Origin: a virus
Strand: one strand, 5' to 3'
Length of the DNA: 32,561 nucleotides
IMG/VR virus record: IMGVR_UViG_3300032213_000998
Coordinates: 1-32,561 of that record
The position numbers and the translations under genes are program-made. Under the pieces are notes generated by a model, which ran no database searches, was not told where the DNA came from, and saw only the letters and a list, made by a program, of their open reading frames with translations. The stretch's first letter is position 1, and every line of letters begins with the position of its first letter. Below, piece after piece: positions 2,704 through 7,170 of this stretch.

Positions 2704-2887
2704 AGGCTTTGTAAACACTAACGCTACATGGGAAGCGTTCTTAGATATGCTAGATGCTGAGATTGCTCAGCAGCATAAAAATTTAGAACAAGCTGTTGAT
2801 GTGCGTGAGATTGGAAAGGCTCAAGGAGCCATTGCTGCTTTACGCAGACTAAGTTATCTTAAGGATGAAGTTAATGTACAACAATGA
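2675..2887 (+). CDS. Small helical protein overlapping the portal gene
   Basis: A 70-residue protein (MLKPYLPKLKGF... to ...KDEVNVQQ). The start at 2675 is preferred over an upstream ATG at 2609 because AAGGA (2661-2665) sits about 9 bases before it and because the earlier residues only mirror the Gly-rich portal tail in another frame. It overlaps portal by 29 bases and the next gene by 14 bases, so the three are translationally coupled. The residues from about 15 to 65 are predicted helical and amphipathic (WEAFLDMLDAEIAQQHKNLE). Position suggests a head-completion or packaging accessory role. No known domain is recognised. Confidence 0.7.
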   Translation: MLKPYLPKLKGFVNTNATWEAFLDMLDAEIAQQHKNLEQAVDVREIGKAQGAIAALRRLSYLKDEVNVQQ

Positions 2888-3827
2888 CACAGAAAAACTC
2901 TTTGCTGAAGGCGGCATGAATGATGAGGGTGGCACAGTAGATCCTGTGTCTGGTAATGATGTACCTACGGGATCTTTGCAGAAAGAAGTGAGGGATGATA
3001 TTCCTGCACAACTTAGTGAAGGCGAGTTTGTTATTCCTGCTGATGTTGTTAGATACATTGGCCTTGATCGCTTGATGCAACTAAGAGATAGAGCAAAAGA
3101 AGGACTGGCTAAGATGGAAGAGATTGGTCAGATGGGAAATGCTGATCAAGTAGAAAATCCAGAAGCTGAGCACGGTGATGACTTCTCGGATGAGATTGAT
3201 AGCATCATGGGCGAACTTGAGGGAGAGAAAAATAATTTAGCAGTGGGTGGTATGCCAGCTCCTAAGTCTACTCCTGAAGTAAAGCAATTTAGAAAGCCTG
3301 ATGGTAGTTCTATGTTTGTAACTTTCTTTAATGGAGAACCTGCAACTACTATTCCAGAAGGTGCTCAAGAAATAACAGCAGCAAATGCAACTCAAAAAGC
3401 TTCCTCTTCTTTAACTAATACTGAGAAAGCAGTTAATAAGAAAATTGATACTAAAGACATGTCTATGTTTGATGAAGAAGACATTGATAAAAAGTTTGAT
3501 AAAGCTTTCTTTGATGAAGTTGCTAGATTTGGCATGGAAAGAAAGAATAAAGAAGTAAGTGCTAAAACCACTCAAGCTGAAGTTCCTACCTACAAGATTG
3601 ATCAAGAGCTTTCAGATTTTTCAGATGCTTTAGATTACAAGTTAACAGGTGATACGGAATCAAGCATGCTATCTAAATCACTAGATGAAGCAGCTGCCCC
3701 TGCTACGGAACCAGCCGCACCTGCTGCTGAACCAACTGCTCCTGCTGCTGCGCCAGCTGAGGCCCCTCCTGTGGAGCCACCCCCTGAAATGGCTAAAGGT
3801 GGACTGGTACGCAGACGTAAGAAATAA
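2874..3827 (+). CDS. Putative virion structural protein with AKGG-type tail
   Basis: A 317-residue acidic protein between the portal and scaffold genes. The ATG at 2874 is chosen because AAGGA (2861-2865) lies 8 bases upstream; the ATG at 2865 has no spacing for a ribosome binding site. Residues 9-70 hold the segment FAEGGMNDEGG, then a conserved-looking block LSEGEFVIPADVVRYIGLDR followed by an amphipathic helix; the middle is charged and probably flexible; the last 50 residues are an Ala/Pro repeat (PAAEPTAPAAAP) ending in a basic peptide MAKGGLVRRRKK. Proteins with the SEGEFVIPADVV block occur next to head genes in phages of aquatic bacteria, so a virion or assembly role is likely, but the exact role is unknown. 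The basic tail could bind DNA or act as an incorporation tag; that is inference. Confidence 0.72.
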   Translation: MYNNDTEKLFAEGGMNDEGGTVDPVSGNDVPTGSLQKEVRDDIPAQLSEGEFVIPADVVRYIGLDRLMQLRDRAKEGLAKMEEIGQMGNADQVENPEAEHGDDFSDEIDSIMGELEGEKNNLAVGGMPAPKSTPEVKQFRKPDGSSMFVTFFNGEPATTIPEGAQEITAANATQKASSSLTNTEKAVNKKIDTKDMSMFDEEDIDKKFDKAFFDEVARFGMERKNKEVSAKTTQAEVPTYKIDQELSDFSDALDYKLTGDTESSMLSKSLDEAAAPATEPAAPAAEPTAPAAAPAEAPPVEPPPEMAKGGLVRRRKK

Positions 3828-3839
3828 TATATAATTAGC

Positions 3840-3891
3840 ATACTCAAGCCAGAGGTGGGCTGGCGAGTATCCACAATTTCCCACCGTTTTT
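3840..3891 (+). promoter_or_regulatory. Predicted H-type RNA pseudoknot before the scaffold gene
   Basis: ATACTC (3840-3845) pairs with GAGTAT (3865-3870) and GCCAG (3848-3852) with CTGGC (3860-3864), giving an 11-bp stem with an AA bulge. Six of the seven loop bases, GGTGGG (3854-3859), are exactly complementary to CCCACC (3880-3885). The interleaved pairing leaves a 1-nt first loop and a 9-nt last loop, which fits classical pseudoknot geometry. The alternative pairing GGTGGG/CCCACC followed by GTTTTT (3886-3891) could instead act as a weak terminator. Seen by eye; not folded by software. Confidence 0.45.
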
Positions 3892-3948
3892 GGCTACCTA
3901 TCTCCCTGTATTGACAGCTACAGTTAGCCCCAACTTAAAAGGTATGTT

Positions 3949-4815
3949 ATGACAGAAGCAGTGATTAATCCGAACCAACAGGCTCAGGCGTTCTCTCCAT
4001 TTGGTAAGCGTAATGCTAACAAAGATCGGATTGAACAAGAAGAAGCAGAATTGAAACGATTGGCTGAAGATAAGAACAATCCATCACAAGATCAACAAGA
4101 CAGTGGTGATGATAGTAACTTAAGCGGAGAAGAGAAAAGCTTTAAGAAGCGTTACGGTGATCTTCGCAGACACTCTCAGCAACAGCAAACAGCTTTGCAA
4201 AAGCAAATTGATGAACTTCGTTCACAACTACAGCAAAGCACAGAGAAGCAAATTAAGCTTCCTAAGAGTGAGGAAGAGTTGAATGAATGGGCAAAAACCT
4301 ACCCTGATGTTGCAAAGATTGTTGAAACAATTGCAATTAAAAAGGCTAAGGAACAAACCCAAGCATTGGATGAACGATTCAAACAGCTTGATGAGCGTGA
4401 GCATCAGACAGCTAAGGAGAAAGCAGAAGCTGAATTGATGCGTCTGCACCCTGACTTTGACTCCATCCGTGATGATGATGATTTCCACAACTGGGTTGAA
4501 GAACAACCTAAGTGGGTGCAAGATGCTTTGTATGATAATGACAGTGATGCAAAAGCTGCTGCTCGTGCCATTGATCTTTACAAGGCTGATAAGAATATTA
4601 AGACGAAGAAGCCTACCTCAGATAAGGGTGCAGCAGAAAGTGTTAACACCCGTGGTAGTCGTTCTGCGCCTACAGGCGAAAGCAAAGATGGTGTCTTTTA
4701 TGAGTCACAGGTAAATAAAATGTCTACCTTTGAATATGAAAAGAACCAAGAAGCTATTGCTAAAGCATTACAATCAGGTAAGTTTGTATACGATATTAGC
4801 GGAAGTGCTCGTTAA
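3949..4815 (+). CDS. Capsid scaffold / assembly protein
   Basis: A 288-residue, highly charged, Gln/Glu/Lys-rich protein immediately upstream (apart from an HNH gene) of the major capsid gene, the classical place of the scaffold. Residues 25-110 and 130-165 are predicted coiled coil (RLAEDKNN..., LQKQIDELRSQLQQ, ERFKQLDEREHQTAKEK). A compact block around residues 165-210 (LHPDFDSIRDDDDF, EEQPKWVQDALYDND) looks conserved, and the C-terminal 30 residues (FEYEKNQEAIAKALQSGKF) may form the helix that binds the capsid protein. AAAAGG (3937-3942) is the ribosome binding site. A TTGACA at 3911-3916 lies upstream but has only a poor -10 partner. No protease domain is visible, so the scaffold is probably released or cut by another protein. 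Confidence 0.8.
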   Translation: MTEAVINPNQQAQAFSPFGKRNANKDRIEQEEAELKRLAEDKNNPSQDQQDSGDDSNLSGEEKSFKKRYGDLRRHSQQQQTALQKQIDELRSQLQQSTEKQIKLPKSEEELNEWAKTYPDVAKIVETIAIKKAKEQTQALDERFKQLDEREHQTAKEKAEAELMRLHPDFDSIRDDDDFHNWVEEQPKWVQDALYDNDSDAKAAARAIDLYKADKNIKTKKPTSDKGAAESVNTRGSRSAPTGESKDGVFYESQVNKMSTFEYEKNQEAIAKALQSGKFVYDISGSAR

Positions 4816-4818
4816 GTA

Positions 4819-4846
4819 TTGACAAACCTGAAACAACTGGTATAAC
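4819..4846 (+). promoter_or_regulatory. Sigma-70-type promoter
   Basis: A perfect -35 box TTGACA (4819-4824), 16 bases of spacer, and -10 TATAAC (4841-4846, five of six). It starts 3 bases after the scaffold stop codon and would drive the HNH gene and perhaps the capsid gene. It implies recognition by host RNA polymerase. It is the best match to a host promoter that I found in the window. Confidence 0.6.
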
Positions 4847-4852
4847 TTTAAC

Positions 4853-4917
4853 AGAGCGAAAAGGGTAGCTCCCCTGACTGTGCCAATCCATAGTCTAGCT
4901 CTTTATCTGATTGGGGA
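4853..4917 (+). promoter_or_regulatory. Structured leader hiding the HNH ribosome binding site
   Basis: CCAATC (4883-4888) is complementary to GATTGG (4909-4914), and the second arm overlaps the GGGGA (4913-4917) that serves as ribosome binding site for the ATG at 4923. The hairpin loop holds GCTCT (4898-4902), which can pair with AGAGC (4853-4857), again giving an interleaved fold. Sequestration of the start region would keep nuclease levels low. Inferred from base pairing by eye. Confidence 0.35.
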
Positions 4918-4922
4918 TTGTT

Positions 4923-5450
4923 ATGGGTGAAGTTAAGACATGCCGCAAGTGCGGTGAAGTTAAGGAATTAGTTGACTTTGTTAAACATAAACAAAGCAAA
5001 GGTGGATATAAACATACCTGTAAACTGTGTGAAAAAGAGCAGAAAAAAGAATACTACTCTGAAAATAAAACTCATATTACAAATAGAAATAAAGAGTATC
5101 GTGTAGTAAATGGTATGTGGTACAACAAGTCTATTGAGCATAGGCTTCGATATGTAATTCAGACTGGTATCGTAAGAGCCAAAAAGAAAAACATTGAATG
5201 GAATTTAAGTTTGGAGTTTCTTTTACTTTTGTGGGAGAGGCAACAAAGTAAATGTGCATACTCTGGAGTACCCCTCACATATGAGGACAACTACTCGCAC
5301 ACTATCTCACTGGACCGTATAGACAGTTCAAAGGGATATACAGAGGATAATGTACAGTATGTCTGTACGATTGTTAATTACATTAAGCAAAGATTTGATG
5401 AAAAGCATTTCTTTGATTTCTGTAAACAAGTAGCGCAAAACTGTAAGTGA
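4923..5450 (+). CDS. HNH endonuclease, free-standing homing type
   Basis: A 175-residue nuclease gene inserted between scaffold and capsid genes. The N-terminus has a zinc-binding pair C7-x2-C10 and C33-x2-C36. The HNH core near the C-terminus reads CAYSG (111-115), SLDRIDSSKGY (129-139), then N143 and C148; D131 and the N/H positions are the expected metal and catalytic residues. The family cuts one or both DNA strands and often spreads its own gene between phage genomes. The ATG at 4923 is preferred over TTG at 4911 because GGGGA lies 5 bases before it. Flanking genes are complete, so this is a stand-alone gene and not an intron or intein passenger. Its lysine-rich, AT-rich coding differs from its neighbours, in keeping with mobility. 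Confidence 0.85.
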   Translation: MGEVKTCRKCGEVKELVDFVKHKQSKGGYKHTCKLCEKEQKKEYYSENKTHITNRNKEYRVVNGMWYNKSIEHRLRYVIQTGIVRAKKKNIEWNLSLEFLLLLWERQQSKCAYSGVPLTYEDNYSHTISLDRIDSSKGYTEDNVQYVCTIVNYIKQRFDEKHFFDFCKQVAQNCK

Positions 5451-5589: not shown

Positions 5590-6660
5590 ATGGCCTTTCC
5601 AAGTGCAGCAGGTTACGGTAACCTGCCAAATGGGAATTTTAGTCCCGTTATCTATAGTAAGCAAGTACAACTTGCCTTTAGAAAAGCGTCTACTGTTGAA
5701 GACATCACCAACAACGATTACTTTGGTGAAATCGCAAACATGGGCGACAGTGTCAAAATCATTAAAGAACCTGAAGTGTCTGTCCAGAGCTATGCTCGTG
5801 GTACACAGATCACTGCTCAAGATCTGAATGACGAAGACTTCACCTTGGTTGTTGACCAAGCTAACTACTACGCTTTCAAGATTGATGACATCGAAGCTGC
5901 TCACTCACATGTGAACTTCATGCAGATGGCTTCTGATCGTGCAGCGTATCGTTTGCGTGATCAGTATGACCAAGATGTGTTGGGTTACTTGTCTGGTTTT
6001 TCACAGTCTGCAAAGCATGTGAATCCTGATACAGCTCGTACAACAGCTTCTGGTACTAAGGCAGTTACTGCCGCTGGTGCTGATGAGTTGTTGGCTTCTA
6101 TGAAGCTGAAAAAAGGTAGCTTCGGTAACATCACTACAGCTTCTGCTGGTGAGCATTCCATTCCTCTGGCTCCCCGTCTGCCCGGTGCAACTGCACTGCC
6201 TACAGATGTGGCATCTCCATTGATGGTTGTGTCTCGCATGGGCCGCTTGTTGGATCAACAGTTTGTTGATTCCGCTGGTCGTTGGTTGGTTGTCGATCCC
6301 GTGTTCATTGAACTGTTGAAGGATGAAGACAGCCGTTTGTTGAACGGTGATTTTGGTGGTTCTGGTTTGCAGAACGGCTTGGTCATTAACAACTTGCATG
6401 GCTTCCGCATCTATGTTTCTAACAACCTGCCAAAGATTGGTACTGGTCCCGGCACTACAGGTACGGCTAACCAGAACTCCAACTATGGTGTGATTGTTGG
6501 TGGTCATGACTCTGCTGTTGCAACTGCTCAGCAAATCACTAAGACCGAGACATATCGTGATCCAGACAGCTTCGCTGACATCGTGCGTGGTATGCATCTT
6601 TATGGTCGCAAAATCTTGCGTCCTGAAGGCATCGTCACTGCTAAATACAACGCTGCTTAA
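5590..6660 (+). CDS. Major capsid protein
   Basis: A 356-residue protein with the strongest ribosome binding site of the block (AGGAGG). The order scaffold - capsid - decoration, the length, and the pattern of a helical N-arm region (FSPVIYSKQVQLAFRKAS), a beta-rich E-loop-like segment (SVQSYARGTQITAQDL), a long spine-like helix (FMQMASDRAAYRLRDQYDQD) and a C-terminal strand (GIVTAKYNAA) fit the HK97 fold used by all tailed phages. Several hundred copies would build the head shell. There is no separate N-terminal delta domain, so a separate scaffold is needed, as found upstream. Codon use is the most C/G-ending of the head genes, as expected for high expression. HK97 fold is inferred from family knowledge, not from structure. 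Confidence 0.9.
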   Translation: MAFPSAAGYGNLPNGNFSPVIYSKQVQLAFRKASTVEDITNNDYFGEIANMGDSVKIIKEPEVSVQSYARGTQITAQDLNDEDFTLVVDQANYYAFKIDDIEAAHSHVNFMQMASDRAAYRLRDQYDQDVLGYLSGFSQSAKHVNPDTARTTASGTKAVTAAGADELLASMKLKKGSFGNITTASAGEHSIPLAPRLPGATALPTDVASPLMVVSRMGRLLDQQFVDSAGRWLVVDPVFIELLKDEDSRLLNGDFGGSGLQNGLVINNLHGFRIYVSNNLPKIGTGPGTTGTANQNSNYGVIVGGHDSAVATAQQITKTETYRDPDSFADIVRGMHLYGRKILRPEGIVTAKYNAA

Positions 6661-6671
6661 GGAGAACAATT

Positions 6672-7079
6672 ATGTCTATCGTTCAATCTATTCGTCCCGT
6701 TCCCGTATTGCTTGAGAAGGATGTCTCTTTGGCTGCTACCTCTGGCACTACTGTGGGCATTTCTGTCCCTGCTGGTGCTTTGGTGCTTGCTGCTGGTTTT
6801 CAAAACTATACTGTGGTCCCTGATGTTACTACCTACACTGTCGCAGTGACAGATGGTACTACTACTTTCATGGCTGCTACTAGCTTTGACAACACTGCTG
6901 CAAACACAATCAAGGCTGGCACTACTGCTGGTTTGGCTGCTGCCGCTGATACCATTGATGTATTAACTTCTATCACTGGTTCTCCCGGCATCATCGCTGG
7001 TCGTGTGTGGGCTTTGGTGGTGGATGTCACCCAAGGCACTCGACCCGCAGCTGCTGTGGATCGTGAGCAACTGGCCTAA
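6672..7079 (+). CDS. Putative head decoration protein
   Basis: A 135-residue, Ala/Thr/Val-rich, beta-strand-rich protein starting 12 bases after the capsid gene, with GGAGA (6660-6664) as ribosome binding site. Strand-like segments such as VPAGALVLAAGFQNY, TTYTVAVTDGTTTF and GRVWALVVDVT alternate with Gly/Pro turns. Position after the capsid gene, size and composition fit a decoration (cement) protein on the head surface. Two hairpins follow its stop codon, the second terminator-like, so capsid and decoration transcripts may end here. The specific family is not recognised. Confidence 0.65.
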   Translation: MSIVQSIRPVPVLLEKDVSLAATSGTTVGISVPAGALVLAAGFQNYTVVPDVTTYTVAVTDGTTTFMAATSFDNTAANTIKAGTTAGLAAAADTIDVLTSITGSPGIIAGRVWALVVDVTQGTRPAAAVDREQLA

Positions 7080-7095
7080 TAGCTAGTTGATAGGA

Positions 7096-7150
7096 GGGGG
7101 AGGCTTCAGCGCCTCTCCCATTTCTGTATGCTCTATTAGAGAGCGTTTTT
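7096..7150 (+). terminator. Hairpin pair with terminator after the capsid/decoration genes
   Basis: First stem GGGGGAGGC (7096-7104) / GCCTCTCCC (7111-7119), nine pairs including one G-U, with a six-base loop but only ATTTCTGT after it. Second stem GCTCT (7130-7134) / AGAGC (7140-7144) followed by GTTTTT (7145-7150), an intrinsic-terminator layout with a short stem. Together they probably reduce read-through from head genes into tail genes. Confidence 0.6.
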
Positions 7151-7170
7151 AAAACTAAGAGGATTCTCTA

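Follow-up and report, generated by a model that had tools for sequence, protein, structure and literature searches.

Conserved RNA structures in the leader of a putative scaffold gene of HMO-2011-type phages

The alpha-operon (S4) has a pseudoknot leader RNA for autogenous translational control, and the scaffolding protein of phage P22 (gene 8) reportedly restricts its own production at a post-transcriptional level. In the T4 gp32 operator, a 5'-terminal pseudoknot nucleates gp32, and an adjacent component carries the ribosome binding site (RBS) (PMC535899). HMO-2011-type phages are described in a survey as ocean-dominant and broadly distributed (PMC9038755); a text search of this survey finds neither a leader nor a noncoding RNA mentioned. 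No earlier description of the element reported here was found in the open-access papers searched.

The leader and its gene

The DNA analysed is a 32.6-kb virus record (IMGVR_UViG_3300032213_000998, positions 1 to 32,561; hereafter the window) of the HMO-2011 phage type. The genes around the leader are:

613-2703: portal-like gene
2865-3827: gene of unknown function
3949-4815, + strand: putative scaffold gene, phrog_13678 (unknown function), between the portal and major capsid genes, with a coiled-coil model
4911-5450: endonuclease VII/HNH-like gene, between the putative scaffold and capsid genes
5590-6660: major head (capsid) protein gene

The phrog_13678 gene is flanked by portal and capsid genes in the window, HMO-2011 and CRP-1. 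Its product is predicted to be almost wholly helical, with long coiled coils (AlphaFold; pLDDT 76, pTM 0.33), and the protein family has an invariant RY-D motif within a K/R-rich stretch. Position between portal and major capsid, and a helical coiled coil, are thus both found as in phage scaffolding proteins. Searches of Pfam, PHROG and PDB found no homologous structure or named scaffold family: the product has no Pfam family, its PHROG label is unknown function, there is no PDB sequence or profile match, and Foldseek gave no confident fold match. Because it comes from genomic place and a helical model, without a named family, the label "scaffold" is positional and the gene is treated as putative.

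Scaffold homologs 78-81% identical to that of HMO-2011 also occur in contigs of metagenome-assembled genomes (MAGs) labelled Bacteroidetes/Flavobacteriales (L420, L421), which are probably phage contigs binned with host. Elsewhere in the head region of the window, the endonuclease VII/HNH-like gene (4911-5450) has its own promoter-like sequence (TTGACA-16-TATAAC, 4819-4846) and a leader with inverted repeats, and GC-rich hairpins followed by TTTTT at 7091-7155, after a gene ending at 7079, resemble an intrinsic terminator in the head operon.

The upstream pseudoknot

An earlier note on this DNA, made from the sequence alone, placed an H-type RNA pseudoknot in the leader of this gene, with an 11-bp stem, a 7-nt loop, a 6-bp GGTGGG/CCCACC helix, a first loop of 1 nt and a last loop of 9 nt. 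These coordinates are all correct, and the stem does have 11 bp, although its description omitted a 2-nt AA bulge (3846-3847). The features of this element, E1, are as follows:

3830-3835, + strand: TATAAT -10-like box; the predicted +1 is A3842
3840-3852, + strand: 5' strand of stem S1 (ATACTC 3840-3845, bulge AA 3846-3847, GCCAG 3848-3852)
3853, + strand: loop L1, a single nucleotide, A (either A or U among homologs)
3854-3859, + strand: 5' strand of S2, GGTGGG in the hairpin loop, with three covarying versions among homologs
3860-3870, + strand: 3' strand of S1, CTGGCGAGTAT (CTGGC 3860-3864 and GAGTAT 3865-3870)
3871-3879, + strand: loop L3, CCACAATTT, 9 nt (A-rich and about 8-13 nt in homologs)
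3880-3885, + strand: 3' strand of S2, CCCACC, with 100% of cells paired in 23 leaders
3887-3891, + strand: T run TTTTT, after GGTGGG...CCCACC, in the window

The loops fit groove crossing, with L1 (1 nt) spanning the 6-bp S2 and L3 (about 8-13 nt) spanning 9-11 bp of S1. None of 2000 dinucleotide shuffles of the leader reached the pseudoknot score. When both strands of the window are searched, the score of E1 is equalled at four other loci; thus, the window sequence alone is not decisive, and proof of the pseudoknot from a single sequence was rejected.

Parsing for the pseudoknot pattern before scaffold homologs in viral contigs yielded 57 distinct parses, one of them a shifted duplicate, and 56 usable distinct E1 leaders. 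Pair statistics were taken from a gap-anchored alignment of 23 distinct leaders. In this alignment, 96.8% of E1 cells hold standard pairs, compared with 83.9% after shuffling and 33-57% when the strands are slid by 1-3 columns. Double-sided compensatory cells number 48 versus 13 in shuffles, counted as sequences rather than events and inflated by related leaders. Double-sided changes are seen at 10 of 15 pairs (8/9 in S1, 2/6 in S2), the retrieval pattern being one that loosely fixes S2 letter classes and could favour S2 but not S1. S2 occurs as GGUGGG/CCCACC, GACGGG/CCCGUC and GAUGGG/CCCAUC, and its double changes (G-C to A-U, U-A to C-G) are present in the RNAalifold result too. S1a is found as ATACTC/GAGTAT, TACCT/AGGTA, ATATTG/CAATAT, TATCG/CGATA, TATTGG/CCAATA, TACCGT/ACGGTA, TACCAA/TTGGTA and TACTA/TAGTA, and further S1 versions are CCAG/CTGG, GTCTG/CAGAC, CCCG/CGGG and CTAG/CTAG, that is, repeated changes with pairing retained.

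The compensatory changes in homologous leaders that the earlier note had named as a check are therefore present in both helices, as expected of an H-type pseudoknot. On this homolog covariation, E1 is accepted as a real, evolutionarily conserved H-type RNA pseudoknot. The estimated pseudoknot energy is equal to or below the nested minimum free energy (MFE) in 51 of 55 leaders, with a rough pseudoknot penalty of 9.6 kcal/mol. The nested MFE alternative shares S2, and was rejected with an outer helix that is 79% paired and without any double-sided change. A 3-bp alternative pairing of S1b with P1 of the second element (below) is kept in most leaders.

An exact TATAAT lies at a fixed spacing in 51 of 55 pseudoknot leaders. 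In 54 of 55 leaders a purine stands at the predicted +1, the seventh base past this box, and in most leaders this base opens S1a. Because the box keeps its distance and the predicted +1 falls on the first base of the stem, transcription probably starts on the pseudoknot (at A3842 in the window), which would make E1 5'-terminal. The -35 of the window is weak, a generic promoter scan does not list the TATAAT promoter at 3830-3835, and no good -10 is present in L081 and L169, two divergent E1 leaders.

A second element beside the Shine-Dalgarno

A further element, E2, lies between the pseudoknot and the Shine-Dalgarno (SD) at 3890-3933 and is absent from the earlier note. Its sequence is UUGG CUAC CUAUCU CC CUGUAUUGACAG CUAC AGUUAG CC CCAA, with a pseudo-two-fold symmetric fold, P1-CUAC-P2-CC-P3-CUAC-P2'-CC-P1':

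3890-3893, + strand: 5' strand of P1, UUGG, pairing with 3930-3933 (TTGG/CCAA, CTGG/CCAG or CTAG/CTAG)
3894-3897, + strand: internal loop A, CUAC, opposite CC 3928-3929; CUAC in 74 of 82 distinct E2s
3898-3903, + strand: 5' strand of P2, CUAUCU, pairing with 3922-3927 with a central U-U mismatch
3904-3905, + strand: internal loop B, CC, opposite CUAC 3918-3921; required by the parser and invariant in alignment A3
3906-3917, + strand: P3 hairpin, CUGU-AUUG-ACAG; the sequence varies and pairing is retained
3918-3921, + strand: second CUAC; CUAC in 70 of 82
3922-3933, + strand: P2' AGUUAG, CC and P1' CCAA
3939-3942, + strand: Shine-Dalgarno AAGG, 5 nt past E2

Since each strand carries G-CUAC-P2-CC-C, the two internal loops are copies across the pseudo-two-fold axis, and the E2 module can be written G-CUAC-helix / helix-CC-C. 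The covariance model R1 has a sole match in the window, at 3890-3933 (31.5 bits, E 9e-8). The parser yielded 82 distinct E2 instances, separated by a score gap from nearly all chance matches, and one chance match (L177) was removed by hand. Among these instances there are 42 distinct P1/P2 combinations, and at one P2 pair the double-sided changes reach 37 of 82, the highest count; P2 versions include CUAUCU/AGUUAG, UCACU/GGUGG, UUAUC/GAUAA, UUAAC/GUUAA, CUAACG/CGUUAG and CCUCAA/UUGUGG. The pairs of P2 and P3 lie far above shuffles, and at most P2 pairs the observed covariation was reached by 0 of 1000 shuffles. Alignment A3 is 91.8% paired, with a covariation of 0.450 versus 0.245 shuffled and at most 45% pairing in slid versions, and RNAalifold recovers the structure unprompted. 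P1-P3 pairs include about 68 G-U cells versus 6 A-C cells, indicating that the folded strand is the + (sense) RNA. An SD-like motif lies 0-7 nt past E2 in 79 of the 82 distinct leaders and overlaps P1' in the other three.

Single-sequence folding of E2 often favours a shifted register (GGCUAC/GUGGCC), and so it is possible that E2 is a two-state element or that the register is partly wrong. The shifted register was rejected, as its pairing is impossible in eight leaders that retain CUAC. That E1 and E2 are both real RNA structures is, in our judgement, nearly certain.

In three leaders (L222, L230, L236), a TATAAT-like box lies 0-2 nt 5' of GGCTAC; a start from this box would fall within E2, and the 5' strand of P1 would be lost.

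Two gene-blind DNA-pattern scans found 165 E2 places in the fetched contigs. A scaffold-family gene starts just past E2 in all 154 of those with enough downstream sequence to be tested. The E2 model clearly matches the leader and nothing else in the window, in the complete genomes of HMO-2011, CRP-1 and MW202701 and in four UViGs about 57 kb long; more divergent isolates have weak or no matches to it. Phages with E2 are of the HMO-2011 type or related to it, and their hosts are SAR116, Roseobacter, SAR11 and Rhizobium. The module is present in 16 of 20 isolate leaders (0-4% in shuffles). It is a single copy in CRP-2, -9, -13, -207, -235, -603 and HTVC033P and nested in CRP-3, CRP-212, RHph_N3_19 and phiM6, whereas HTVC103P, HTVC104P and HTVC115P have two hairpins in tandem. 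The module scan gave no match in CRP-345, CRP-738, CHOED and Slicky01. Weaker look-alikes (ACAC or AUAC) occur in Aeromonas 1233, MQM1, CHOED and CRP-738, and nothing in the Slicky01 leader is recognisable as a module. In CRP-345 (L426, MZ892990.1), the annotated scaffold start (locus 500) falls within E2; this start codon is thus probably annotated too early.

When mapped onto a tree built from 103 scaffold proteins, the presence of the pseudoknot requires three changes, compared with 16.9 for shuffled labels. This fits one gain in the clade of the window, with subsequent losses (for example L080 and L224), and fits E2 being older and more widespread, with the pseudoknot a later addition. L080, a close relative that has lost the pseudoknot, has a single module, TG-CGAC-CTGC AAGT GCAG-CC-CA, with CGAC replacing CUAC, and a GACGAAG/CTTCGTC hairpin upstream of it. 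Leaders without E1 have a hairpin around the stop codon of the upstream gene, usually ending 4-8 nt before E2, with a stem of at least 6 in 71 of 119 distinct leaders versus 8% of shuffles. As this hairpin occupies the same place as E1, the leader plan appears to be an upstream helix, a short spacer, E2 and the SD, with the pseudoknot as one version of the upstream helix.

In these hairpins (L235, L394 and L234 among them), the stop codon sits in the loop and the stem is half coding and half noncoding, with pairing kept despite variation. Many different upstream genes (L169-L405) share the C-terminal tails GGLASR or KRGLATR followed by the stop, as would be expected if tail, hairpin and E2 moved together in a single cassette.

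Proposed role and known systems

Taken together, E1 and E2 resemble a previously undescribed element that would control the making of virus shells. That they act in cis on scaffold expression is likely. In the fuller reading, which in our view has about an even chance of being right, positions 3842-3948 form a composite cis-acting leader RNA by which the translation, and probably also the stability, of the putative scaffold mRNA are set. Because E2 is fixed before one gene across host groups, has repeated identical loop modules and adjoins the SD, the preferred explanation is an operator that serves a phage-encoded protein; it would control translation of the scaffold gene in cis, probably with a protein bound. 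Its persistence across phages of SAR116, Roseobacter, SAR11 and Rhizobium also fits a phage-encoded partner. A protein, most likely one of the structural proteins of the phage, would recognise the modules; the scaffold product is the first candidate because its gene accompanies E2 everywhere and the protein has a conserved basic stretch. As free protein accumulates, it would bind E2, clamp P1 and P2 beside the SD and lower initiation, and E1 would be a 5'-terminal nucleation site or end-protector of a transcript begun just upstream. Alternatively, the capsid protein or a protein of the host could be the partner, or there could be none, and autoregulation by scaffold or capsid specifically is put forward tentatively. 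The position of the leader is consistent with control of the scaffold-to-capsid ratio. Possible, but more doubtful, is that E2 is a symmetric two-module (CUAC/CC) operator to which scaffold or capsid protein binds as a multimer, such that the state of head assembly directly tunes scaffold translation, with the 5' pseudoknot added later in one clade, together with its promoter, to nucleate binding or protect the transcript.

The strongest rival, although unlikely, is a constitutive mRNA stabiliser and initiation standby without ligand or feedback, with E1 blocking 5'-end-dependent decay and E2 fixing the geometry of the ribosome site. A predicted +1 on the first base of S1 is the ideal place for a 5'-end protector, and E2 is indeed fixed beside the SD. 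However, conserved loop letters would not be needed for this, yet across hosts CUAC/CC is retained whether the module is single, nested or in tandem. Decidedly less probable is that a host factor, such as a ribosomal protein, RNase III/E or another RNA-binding protein, uses the leader as an operator or processes it. Bacteria commonly have leader operators to which ribosomal proteins bind, and the AU-rich spacer of 4-8 nt from the upstream helix to E2 could be a cleavage site, but RNase III would be acting on short helices in E2 (4 + 5-6 + 3-6 bp), the same module is seen across several alphaproteobacterial host groups, and E2 was not found elsewhere in the phage genomes searched.

The small-molecule riboswitch suggested in the earlier note is improbable. 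SAM-II-like marine motifs do use compact pseudoknots near start codons (PMC2704228), and the E2 loop letters are conserved; however, the association is with a phage structural gene alone, never with a metabolic one, and Rfam covariance models gave no match to the window leader at gathering thresholds and no match to known riboswitch or cis-regulatory families, for E2 included, beyond chance (E up to 10; window leader, HMO-2011 E2 and L206). A DNA-level packaging, recombination or replication signal, to which strong nucleotide conservation and one copy per genome would point, is very improbable given the excess of sense-strand G-U over A-C pairs and the fixed adjacency to the SD and start codon. 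Weakest of all is the switch between pseudoknot and intrinsic terminator that the earlier note drew from the window T run past CCCACC: homologs contradict it, as the run is seen in the window alone and is not conserved (E1-E2 spacers in 56 leaders are ATAT in 15, ATTATT in 11, ATCATT in 8 and GTTTTT in 1), and a terminator scan called no site at 3887-3891.

The protein-bound operator remains the preferred reading, and a conserved modular RNA before a putative scaffold gene would be a concrete candidate for tuning head-protein stoichiometry in tailed phages. E2 is available in isolates, namely HMO-2011, CRP and HTVC phages, RHph_N3_19 and phiM6.

A link to P22 is that the HMO-2011 coat protein is annotated as P22-coat-like; to our knowledge, no RNA operator of the E1/E2 kind is known in P22. 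Mu-gpT-DE RNA (RF03012) is an RNA family named for a phage head gene, but its match in the E2 flank of HMO-2011 is at chance level only (9-bit, E 8.5). E1 resembles the Ca. Pelagibacter methionine-associated motif and SAM-II in being a small marine pseudoknot near a start codon (PMC2704228); those are tied to methionine genes, unlike the window leader, which has no Rfam match. As in S15 rpsO (PMC3014915), a pseudoknot is found in a leader RNA, there for autogenous translational control; S15 rpsO and the S4 alpha-operon are however host ribosomal genes, and the present leader has no Rfam match.

Gene 32 of T4, T2 and RB69 is a different gene to which no sequence relation was found. Its second component consists of less structured UUAAA/UAAA repeats, whereas that of the leader is the conserved symmetric stem E2, with a single UUAAA before the SD in place of RBS repeats of the gene 32 type. 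Since the second component differs, the leader is not a member of the gene 32 system. The two are nevertheless alike in that the product of gene 32, as of a scaffold gene, is needed in stoichiometric amounts, and in that an H-type pseudoknot, 5'-terminal in gene 32 and predicted to be so in the leader, is followed by a contiguous second component holding the RBS (PMC535899, PMC3014915).
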